This document shows positions 31,510 to 35,252 of a stretch of DNA of 41,475 nt, in pieces; position 1 is the first letter of the stretch, and the number at the start of each line of letters is the position of its first letter. A model generated the notes under the pieces. That model was not told the DNA's origin. It worked only from the letters and a program-made list of their open reading frames with translations, and did not search any database. This DNA comes from an uncultured Traorella sp. (lineage in GTDB: Bacteria > Bacillota_I > Bacilli_A > Erysipelotrichales > Erysipelotrichaceae), in the NCBI GenBank assembly GCA_944324265.1, contig CALUVS010000020.1:1-41475 (forward strand), written 5' to 3'. The position numbers and the translations under genes were made by a program.

Positions 31510-32073
31510 ATGCAAGTAAAAGATATTGAAGCATTTTATGACATCTGTGTAAGTGCAGAAGAATCCACCATTCAGAAAGAATGGAATAAGTTATGGAAAT
31601 GGTTCATGCAGGAAAAGAAAAATGAATATGCCAGCATATCATACAAGGAGGGGGTTCAGCGGCTTGTCAGTGAAAAAAATTATAACACACGGCGTAATGT
31701 GGCCAGTGCGAAAGCCTTAGGTCTGCAGATCGTGCCCGGTGATATTTGTTACATTGACTTTGGACAGGCATATTTATATGAAGCCGGTTATCAGCATTTT
31801 GGACTGGTATTGGCAATTGTTCATTTCAAAGCATTGATCATACCTATGACCAGCAATCCCAATACATATCGCAAATCGCTCAATCAAGAAGAAGGTCAAT
31901 ATTTATATCCTTTGGGATGGATCGATGGATTATACAAAGAAAGTGTTTTATTCTTAAATGATGCGAAATTTATCAACACAGCCCGAATCATTGATGTCAA
32001 AGCCCATTTGGATACAGACTCTGAAATGTTTCTGGAAATTAAAGAAAAATTTAAAAATCTGGTTCTTGATTAA
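31510..32073 (+). CDS. MazF/PemK-like domain protein, no recognisable antitoxin
   Basis: 187-residue protein of uncertain function. The central part (about residues 76-125: PGDICYIDFGQAYLYEAGYQHFGLVLA, key residues PGD..YIDFG and GLVLA, then IIPMTSNPNTYR) resembles the beta-barrel start of MazF/PemK endoribonucleases (GDIV.VDFG...PALVI...P.TS). It has an extra helical N-terminal region of about 75 residues with WNKLWKWF and a C-terminal extension. The usual toxin residues RP before LVI are replaced by H-F-G. No small antitoxin gene lies upstream or downstream. ATG 31510 follows GAGGAGGTG. It is flanked by tagO and spoIIE. I would call it MazF-like, function unknown. Confidence 0.6.
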   Translation: MQVKDIEAFYDICVSAEESTIQKEWNKLWKWFMQEKKNEYASISYKEGVQRLVSEKNYNTRRNVASAKALGLQIVPGDICYIDFGQAYLYEAGYQHFGLVLAIVHFKALIIPMTSNPNTYRKSLNQEEGQYLYPLGWIDGLYKESVLFLNDAKFINTARIIDVKAHLDTDSEMFLEIKEKFKNLVLD

Positions 32074-32074
32074 A

Positions 32075-32108
32075 TTCGACAAGACTTCTTCTCACTTTCA
32101 TCTAAGAT
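32075..32108 (+). promoter_or_regulatory. Spo0A-activated SigA-type promoter of spoIIE
   Basis: TTCGACA (32075-32081) is a perfect Spo0A box that also serves as a -35-like element; TAAGAT (32103-32108) is a fair -10. The gap is 21 bases, too long for an ordinary SigA promoter but the spacing known for Spo0A-activated spoIIG and spoIIE promoters. AAGGGGG and the spoIIE ATG follow. Confidence 0.7.
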
Positions 32109-32128
32109 AGTAAAAAAAGGGGGCAATT

Positions 32129-33982
32129 ATGAATTCGCTGACATCTGCACAGTCTAAAAACAAAACGCAGATTTATTATTTCTTGTTCATTATTGGTTTA
32201 GGGTTAGGTATGTCTGGATTATCCATGGGGATGTTTGTTCCGCTGGTATTGCCGATATTGTGTATGTTTTATTTACGTTCTGTCAACGAAGCTGTTTTAT
32301 TTTTGCTGCCGCTGAGTCTTCATTATTTTATCAGCGTATCCGAAAGCGGATACTTAGCTTTATCTTTGATCATCATCCTTGGATTGATAATGATTGCATA
32401 TTTTCTGAAAGCCAATATTTTAACATTGCTTCGAATGGCAGTGCCGGTCTGTGCGTTTGTCTATATGATGCTTTTCTTTGGTGATGTACTGACAAGCTTT
32501 GCTGTTTTAATCTTTGAGATGATCATCATGAATGAAATTGTGAAAGATTGGCATTGGATGAAACAGAAATTTAAGCTGCCCAGTGCAGTATATGGGATTG
32601 TTGTTTTAGCAATCGGGTGTTTGCTTTACAATTATATGCCCTTAACTCCGGCACTATTCCTGACAGCCAGCTTTATTTTTATCTGCAGCGGATGTGAACC
32701 AATCATTTGCTTTCTGTGCTATGGCTTGATTGCGCTTTTTATGCCTAATGCATTGCCGTTAACGAGCTTTATCGTTATTTTTGTCTTATCTTTACTGAGA
32801 AATCAGAAAAAAACAATGCTGCTTGTTTTTGCTTTTATTCTTTTAAGCAGTGACATTACATTGGCTTTGCTTTCTTCTTATGCAATTTATCTGATTTTAT
32901 TCTTATTGTTAAGCAAAGAAGGGACTCCATTTCAGGAAGAAAAGCAGAGGTCACTTCTGGAACATAATCGCAAGGCTTTGATGCATCGGCAACTGAATCA
33001 TTTTTCAATGATATTTGAAAATTTGGCAGAATATTATGAAACGGTATCAGCCTTGGAATCATCCTTGCTGGAATCCATGGGCAAAGCTTTGGAATATACG
33101 GCAAAGAAATGCAAAGAAGAAGACAGTGAATGTGAGACCTATAAACATCAGATCTTAAATATTTTAGAGGGTTATAAAATTGATTGTGAAGAATGTGAAT
33201 TGGAAATCAGTGATGATGGACGGGTATCCTTATTGCTTTCACTGAATGATTTCCGAAAAAGTGAAGTTAAGGAAGTATTATTGCCGTTATTGAATCATAT
33301 TTTGCCGACAACAATGGAATTGGTTGAAGATGTCTATCGCTTTCATCCGATTCAGCGGAATACTTATCAGTTTATTTCCGGGGCACCGATTCAAATTGAT
33401 GCCTATGCGGATAGTATCAAGCATGATACAGTCTGCGGAGATACATTTTCTATCTTTCGGCATGCACGTAGTGTTTACTGCATGATCAGCGATGGAATGG
33501 GCAGCGGCTATGAGGCGGGCAAGATTTCCAGCAGCATATCCAATATTTTTCAGCGAATGATTGCCAGTGATATTCCGGAATTGGATGCAATCTTCTGCAT
33601 CAATAAACTGTTGCAGAGTGAAAGCTATGCGACAATGGATGTATTAAGCTTTGATCGTTATCAAAAAACAGTGATGATCTGCAAATCGGCAGCTTGTCCG
33701 ACATATCTGATCCGAAATAATGAATTGTATGCCATCAATGGTCATTCATTGCCGATTGGTATCATCACAGAAATTGAAGTTGATCATGTCAAAGTACATG
33801 TAGAAAAAAATGACTGGTTTTTAATGAGCAGTGACGGTGTATTCATGGATGAAATTACTCATTGGATACAAAATAAAAAAGATGGCAGTGCCAAAGAAGA
33901 AGTAGAGAACTTAATGCAGGAACTCTCCCTTCGAATCAGAGAAGATGATACAACTATTCTTTTAGCGAAAGTATTGAGTTAA
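32129..33982 (+). CDS. spoIIE: Stage II sporulation protein E (PP2C phosphatase)
   Basis: Membrane phosphatase that dephosphorylates the anti-anti-sigma factor SpoIIAA and so activates SigF in the forespore; it also localises to the polar septum. The 617-residue protein has about ten hydrophobic segments in residues 14-270, a linker (about 275-400) and a C-terminal PP2C domain with the metal-binding acids in GDTFSIF (about 437), SDGMGSG (about 453), SSDGV and DDTT. It is some 200 residues shorter than Bacillus subtilis SpoIIE (827), the reduction being mainly in the central regulatory region. Upstream Spo0A box and downstream tilS-hpt-ftsH match the classic locus. Confidence 0.94.
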   Translation: MNSLTSAQSKNKTQIYYFLFIIGLGLGMSGLSMGMFVPLVLPILCMFYLRSVNEAVLFLLPLSLHYFISVSESGYLALSLIIILGLIMIAYFLKANILTLLRMAVPVCAFVYMMLFFGDVLTSFAVLIFEMIIMNEIVKDWHWMKQKFKLPSAVYGIVVLAIGCLLYNYMPLTPALFLTASFIFICSGCEPIICFLCYGLIALFMPNALPLTSFIVIFVLSLLRNQKKTMLLVFAFILLSSDITLALLSSYAIYLILFLLLSKEGTPFQEEKQRSLLEHNRKALMHRQLNHFSMIFENLAEYYETVSALESSLLESMGKALEYTAKKCKEEDSECETYKHQILNILEGYKIDCEECELEISDDGRVSLLLSLNDFRKSEVKEVLLPLLNHILPTTMELVEDVYRFHPIQRNTYQFISGAPIQIDAYADSIKHDTVCGDTFSIFRHARSVYCMISDGMGSGYEAGKISSSISNIFQRMIASDIPELDAIFCINKLLQSESYATMDVLSFDRYQKTVMICKSAACPTYLIRNNELYAINGHSLPIGIITEIEVDHVKVHVEKNDWFLMSSDGVFMDEITHWIQNKKDGSAKEEVENLMQELSLRIREDDTTILLAKVLS

Positions 33983-33995
33983 AAAATGATTATTT

Positions 33996-34037
33996 GAAAA
34001 AAAGATAGAAATCAAAAGCTGATTTTTGTCTTTTTTT
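33996..34037 (+). terminator. Terminator after spoIIE
   Basis: Arms AAAAAAAGATAGAAATCA and TGATTTTTGTCTTTTTTT around AAAGC, an AT-rich imperfect stem ending in T7. Confidence 0.7.
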
Positions 34038-34055
34038 ATAAGATTATGGTATGAT
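34026..34055 (+). promoter_or_regulatory. Promoter of tilS
   Basis: TTGTCT (34026-34031), 18-base spacer, TATGAT (34050-34055) preceded by TGG. Predicted transcription start coincides with the tilS ATG at 34062. Confidence 0.5.
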
Positions 34056-34061
34056 ACTGGC

Positions 34062-35252
34062 ATGAATCAATGGCTAGTAGCAGTATCAGGCGGTTGTGAT
34101 TCAATGACCTTGCTTGATCTATGTGTAAAAAATCAAATAAATATTCGGGCGGCACATGTCAATTATCAGAAACGCGCTACCGCAAAAAGAGATGAAATGC
34201 TGGTCAGAAATTATTGTGAACAACACAATATTCCTTTGCATGTAGCCTATTGTCCAACGGAATATCAAGGCAATTTTCAGGCTTATGCGCGTGCTTTCCG
34301 CTATGATTTTTTTAAGCAGCTGGTGCAGGAGTATCAGCTTGAAGGGGTGCTTGTCGCTCATCAATTGGATGATCATTTAGAAACTTATCTGATTCAGAAA
34401 GAAAGAAAAAGTATACCGCTGCACTATGGCCTGCAGAAAGAGATGAGGCAGAATGGACTGCGTGTGGTACGTCCGTTACTGAACATGACCAAAAAACAAT
34501 GTTATGACTATTGTTCAAAGCATCAGCTTGCTTACGGAGAGGATGAAAGTAACTTCTCTGATGATTACTTGAGAAATCGGCTGCGCAAAGAAATTGCTTT
34601 GTGGAGTGAACAAGAGAAAGAACAATTGCTTTTGGAAATCCAAAACAAAAATGAAGAAAAAGAAAAAAAGGATGCATTGATTCAGAAAGAATTGGATCAA
34701 TTTGATGAAGATTTCAATATTGCTTTATTTCAGACAGTAAAAAATCCAAAAGAGGTTTTGCGGGCATGGCTGCATCGTGAACATGTCGGTTATCATTGCT
34801 CTGAAAAGTATTTGTCTTTGATCTGCCGCACCATTCTCGAAAACAAAAAGAACTTTCGATTTAAAATAGATGAGCAGACGGAATTGGTCAGAAGCTATGA
34901 AGTTGCGCAGTTAGTCAAAGATGTTTCATATTCTTATACATTTGCACATATACAGGAATTTGACTGTGCTTATTTTAAGATTCGTACTGAAGGGACATCG
35001 ATGCAGGCAGTGACATTGAGTGAAGAGGACTTTCCGATCACAGTGCGTTCTCCTTTGCCGCATGATAAAATTGAACTTCGCTATGGGACAAAAAAGGTCA
35101 ATCGCTTCTTTATTGACAGAAAAATATCACATAAAGAACGGAAATGCTGGCCAATTGTTGTGAATCGTGTGGGAAATGTTATTTTCGTAGCAGAAATAGG
35201 GTGTGATGTGAAACATTATACTAACAAAGCGAATTGTTTTGTGGTAAAATAA
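34062..35252 (+). CDS. tilS: tRNA(Ile)-lysidine synthase
   Basis: Essential enzyme that puts lysine on C34 of the AUA-reading tRNA-Ile, changing its codon and amino-acid identity. The 396-residue protein has the PP-loop SGGCDS at residues 9-14, AAHVNYQ, HQLDDHLETYLI and RPLLNMTKKQ, then a C-terminal TilS domain (about 315-390). ATG 34062 is chosen: the in-frame TTG 34026 lies in the promoter, although the resulting N-terminus before the PP-loop is short and no Shine-Dalgarno is visible. Order spoIIE-tilS-hpt-ftsH is conserved in Bacillota. Confidence 0.93.
   Translation: MNQWLVAVSGGCDSMTLLDLCVKNQINIRAAHVNYQKRATAKRDEMLVRNYCEQHNIPLHVAYCPTEYQGNFQAYARAFRYDFFKQLVQEYQLEGVLVAHQLDDHLETYLIQKERKSIPLHYGLQKEMRQNGLRVVRPLLNMTKKQCYDYCSKHQLAYGEDESNFSDDYLRNRLRKEIALWSEQEKEQLLLEIQNKNEEKEKKDALIQKELDQFDEDFNIALFQTVKNPKEVLRAWLHREHVGYHCSEKYLSLICRTILENKKNFRFKIDEQTELVRSYEVAQLVKDVSYSYTFAHIQEFDCAYFKIRTEGTSMQAVTLSEEDFPITVRSPLPHDKIELRYGTKKVNRFFIDRKISHKERKCWPIVVNRVGNVIFVAEIGCDVKHYTNKANCFVVK
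35242..35250 (+). promoter_or_regulatory. Extended -10 promoter of hpt
   Basis: TGGTAAAAT (35242-35250) within the last codons of tilS, about 27 bases before the hpt ATG; GGAGG lies between. Same TGGTA.AAT form as the Fem and tilS promoters. Confidence 0.4.

Follow-up and report, generated by a model that had tools for sequence, protein, structure and literature searches.

The spoIIE gene of an uncultured Traorella sp. is very probably (about 93%) preceded by a predicted sigma-A promoter in which a 0A box takes the place of the −35 element and which would be activated by Spo0A~P, as in the B. subtilis promoters that it resembles. This promoter joins a known promoter class and is not a new kind of system.

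Layout of the predicted spoIIE promoter

The features surrounding the promoter are listed in Table 1, where positions are those of the window, the whole 41,475-nucleotide stretch of DNA that was analysed. On re-reading, the exact TTCGACA heptamer and the TAAGAT that follows it 21 bases on were found to be correctly placed in a preliminary description of this DNA, and the ribosome binding site reported there after TAAGAT corresponds to the G-rich AAGGGGG, whose GGGGG run spans 32119–32123. The spoIIE ATG begins at 32129. The upstream open reading frame ends in a TAA at 32071–32073, which leaves a single base between this stop codon and TTCGACA and an intergenic gap of 55 bases.

Table 1 Features of the spoIIE locus in the window
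Feature	Positions	Strand	Basis or remark
PemK/MazF-like upstream neighbour, function unknown	31510–32073	+	PF02452 hit at E 0.09, short of the cut-off
0A box TTCGACA (reverse complement of TGTCGAA), replacing the −35 element	32075–32081	+	Reading and relatives
21-base spacer; length kept, sequence not	32082–32102	+	Upstream regions of relatives
−10-like TAAGAT; weak, 4/6 versus TATAAT	32103–32108	+	Reading and relatives
Predicted transcription start, ~7 bases past the −10	32115	+	Inferred from the −10 position
Ribosome binding site AAGGGGG	32117–32123	+	Reading; similar GGGG(G) in same-genus relatives
spoIIE, 617 aa	32129–33982	+	Multi-pass N-terminal part (by reading), C-terminal PP2C-type SpoIIE domain
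tilS, downstream neighbour	34026–35252	+	

In B. subtilis, the box-to-(−10) spacing at spoIIE and spoIIG is 21–22 bases, and Spo0A targets usually carry several 0A boxes. The Traorella region has the features of the Spo0A-activated sigma-A class: a 0A box (TGNCGAA or its reverse complement) separated by 21–22 bases from a sigma-A-like −10, and no usable −35 at 16–18 bases. A promoter scan found no sigma-70-like promoter with 16–18 spacing on the + strand near 32075–32108. Within 200 bases of spoIIE, one 0A box with at most one mismatch is present besides TTCGACA; it faces the other way, at −134, and falls within the upstream gene. Weaker boxes are beyond judging, and the Traorella genome shows only one clear 0A box close to spoIIE.

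The assignment of the downstream gene as spoIIE is upheld by its SpoIIE phosphatase domain (PF07228, 74.9 bits versus a cut-off of 25). The protein misses the NCBIfam equivalog cut-off of TIGR02865 (135.1 versus 490.8 bits); this cut-off is narrow, since all 296 class genomes searched fall short of it and the B. subtilis control alone passes. Orthology is suggested by the domain, the length, the location and the co-occurrence with Spo0A.

By analogy with B. subtilis and C. difficile, a sequence of events can be proposed. The sigma-A-type promoter would be weak unaided because a −35 element is missing at the normal distance. Spo0A~P, with phosphorylation probably needed as in those species, would occupy TTCGACA at the −35 position and touch sigma-A RNA polymerase held on TAAGAT 21 bases downstream. 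In this way spoIIE would be switched on as sporulation starts, and SpoIIE may then dephosphorylate SpoIIAA, with sigma-F being freed. Given the B. subtilis-like anatomy and an unchanged DNA-reading helix in Spo0A, the same mechanism is the best explanation.

Conservation of the layout and alternative explanations

The evidential weight of the motif is its conservation in relatives. Of 32 Erysipelotrichales genomes, 18 from the family of Traorella (f1) and 14 from a second family (f2), 28 have the pattern GACA-N21-TANNNT ahead of spoIIE; the genomes are related to one another, so that these counts are not independent. In 300 dinucleotide-preserving shuffles, the same search matched a mean of 0.25 and a maximum of 2 genomes, and each gap other than 21 (range 12 to 29) occurs in at most 5 of the 32; the spacing in G054 is 20. 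The exact TTCGACA precedes spoIIE in 8 of the 18 f1 members, namely all five of the genus together with G028, G023 and G016. Other Erysipelotrichales carry TACGACA, AACGACA, TATGACA and similar boxes; the −10 elements of relatives include TATAGT, TAGAAT and TATAAT, and the spacer sequences vary freely between genera. Outside the order, among 27 usable class genomes from other families, 16 have the looser ACA-N21-TANNNT, and any other gap occurs in at most 5. For these comparisons, the upstream regions of G237, G155 and G148 were excluded as too short or masked, and the start codons of G031 and G319 were set by hand, the automatic picks being wrong. The 21-base gap and its presence in 28 of 32 genomes support the membership in the Spo0A-activated SigA class, with its over-long spacing, that had been put forward in the preliminary description.

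The PemK/MazF-like gene upstream of spoIIE, though not annotated, is apparently a core gene of the family: it occurs in most f1 (Erysipelotrichaceae) genomes, including 14 that have no spoIIE match. A role for it as a sporulation gene was rejected on this ground. In most spoIIE-less f1 relatives tilS directly follows this gene, and in none of the 14 does GACA-N21-TANNNT occur in the 120 bases past it. The element thus travels with spoIIE and not with the neighbourhood. One spoIIE-less genome, G015 (L273), has an exact TTCGACA 9 bases past the upstream gene, beside a terminator-like hairpin; this heptamer lacks the 21-base layout and is possibly a relic or a chance occurrence.

These neighbouring genes bear on whether most spoIIE transcription is read-through from the PemK/MazF-like gene, with the box acting as a minor modulator. 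The stop codon lies one base from the box, the terminator scan detected no hairpin in the 55-base gap, and the two genes stay paired across the family; read-through could, on these grounds, also feed spoIIE. As the main source it is nevertheless very unlikely, as f2 preserves the box-N21-(−10) layout although nearly all of its genomes lack the upstream gene, which makes the layout independent of that neighbour, and as spoIIE-less genomes retain the upstream gene without the element.

Less likely still is an ordinary sigma-A promoter of odd spacing, in which the match to the 0A box would be accidental and reflect the −35 consensus TTGACA. In f2, the element does resemble a −35 hexamer: it is ATGACA or GTGACA, followed by a perfect TATAAT, and at spoIIG it is TTTGACA. 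However, the conserved length of 21 bases is too long for unaided sigma-A, and TTCGACA keeps its C, a letter foreign to the −35 consensus, throughout the genus and in several other genera. Moreover, the exact TGTCGAA before spoIIA stands in the opposite orientation, and the element is confined to genomes with Spo0A.

That TTCGACA is a chance 7-base word can be regarded as refuted by the position-specific conservation of GACA-N21-TANNNT before spoIIE and the absence of this element from all 14 spoIIE-less loci, even though the frequency of TTCGACA in both the window (6 observed versus 5.1 expected) and the genome is at chance level. The exact match emphasised in the preliminary description is real, but the bare heptamer is no evidence in itself. 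Genome-wide, TTCGACA-N20-22-TANNNT gives 20 matches versus 37 for a reversed control pattern, and heptamer plus spacing was dropped as a genome-wide search tool. Because heptamer, spacing and −10 together do not exceed the control, the case for a Spo0A-activated promoter rests on comparison.

Spo0A, further predicted sites and divergence of the boxes

The Traorella Spo0A scores above the TIGR02875 equivalog cut-off (266.9 versus 200 bits), and its SRVERAIRHAIEVAW stretch, the recognition helix, is identical to that of B. subtilis Spo0A in PDB 1lq1. Wherever the helix could be located in a Spo0A, it reads SRVERAIRH(A/S)IE(V/I)AW. Among 59 relatives, 27 have both Spo0A and SpoIIE, 31 have neither, and one, a 79% complete genome, has SpoIIE only (Fisher p ~6e-16, with relatedness ignored); in further SpoIIE-bearing class genomes that were checked, Spo0A is present in 30 of 30. 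A genuine Spo0A with an unchanged recognition helix agrees with the proposal that the sporulation switch is conserved here. A second, partial Spo0A_C-like protein (34 bits, a frame of ~230 aa) is encoded at G000:C17:29463-29690 (L002), and weak Spo0A_C matches of similar size also occur in several relatives.

The 21-base layout is also found before spoIIGA-sigE, in 25 of 31 Erysipelotrichales genomes and in 15 of 24 outside the order. Since SpoIIGA was undetected by Pfam in the Traorella genus, spoIIG was located there via sigma-E; its upstream region in Traorella reads ATCGACA-N21-TTTAAT. The check suggested in the preliminary description, a comparison of what precedes spoIIE and spoIIG in relatives, is thus strongly positive for both genes. 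Upstream of spoIIAA, a TGTCGAA in the opposite orientation lies at −60 or −61 in the Traorella genome and in a number of relatives. Upstream of the Traorella spo0A (G000:C1, L001), CTCGACA and TTAGACA lie 20 bases apart before a TATAAT, and these paired boxes suggest that spo0A may be autoregulated. Across spo0A upstream regions, the gaps cluster near 20–21 and 30–31, with a few at 11; these clusters would fit action from one helix face, although gaps of 8–13 are populated as well. With the sites at spoIIE, spoIIG, spoIIA and spo0A, a small and consistent putative Spo0A regulon is visible.

The relative quality of the box and the −10 differs between lineages. The Traorella genus combines a perfect spoIIE box with a weak −10; f2 combines weak boxes, most of which have lost the counterpart of the contacted G5 of TGTCGAA, with a perfect TATAAT. 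Across the order, box score and −10 score show a Spearman correlation of −0.58 (n = 32), which is confounded by relatedness; the negative correlation is not seen within f2, and a trade-off between the two elements is only a lead. In f17 (L180, L182–L185) and f4 (L186), the spoIIE box is eroded to TTTTACA, while the 21-base spacing and the Spo0A helix are unchanged. In f6, the spoIIE box lies 11, not 21, bases from TATAAT in five of nine cases (L188, L255, L257, L263 and L264), approximately one helical turn closer; the shifted boxes are mostly TATGACA, and the f6 spoIIG promoters retain the 21-base spacing. Since every Spo0A whose recognition helix could be located has the same helix, an altered Spo0A specificity was rejected as the cause of the changed boxes of f2 and f17. 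We tentatively suggest, as a reading that is possible and somewhat doubtful, that across the class Bacilli helical geometry, with its 21-base spacing, is conserved while the box letters erode under an unchanged Spo0A helix, that a weak box is offset by a strong −10, with f6 showing a shift of about one helical turn, and that promoter strength and the Spo0A threshold may thus be tuned by trading box quality against −10 quality.

Significance and comparison with known systems

The Erysipelotrichales are a gut lineage in which spore formation is patchy, and no promoter work on this order was found in the searchable literature. The present analysis gives a comparative footing for an Erysipelotrichales Spo0A regulon. 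It also provides a usable search rule, in which a box, 21 bases and a −10 are sought together in co-location with a spo gene, and never the bare heptamer. The range from a perfect box with a weak −10 to a weak box with a perfect −10, all under one fixed helix, constitutes a natural data set on the evolution of the sporulation threshold.

In B. subtilis, Spo0A~P activates the sigma-A promoters of spoIIG and spoIIE through contact with the sigma subunit (York 1992 and Schyns 1997, as cited in PMC12090719). The Traorella promoter resembles these in the genes concerned, the box at −35, the sigma-A-like −10 and the over-long spacing. It differs in that a single clear box is visible and in that this box matches the heptamer perfectly; B. 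subtilis spoIIE has only near-consensus boxes, and neither spoIIE nor spoIIAA of that species has a perfect 0A box (PMC3485338). The perfect box stressed in the preliminary description is therefore present here but is not needed for membership in the class, most relatives also having imperfect boxes. The Spo0A of C. difficile binds in vitro to the region preceding spoIIE (PMC3485338; PMC13395437), and the predicted box likewise lies close to the −35; this box is degenerate, unlike that of Traorella, and a CamA methylation site overlaps it (PMC3485338; PMC13395437).
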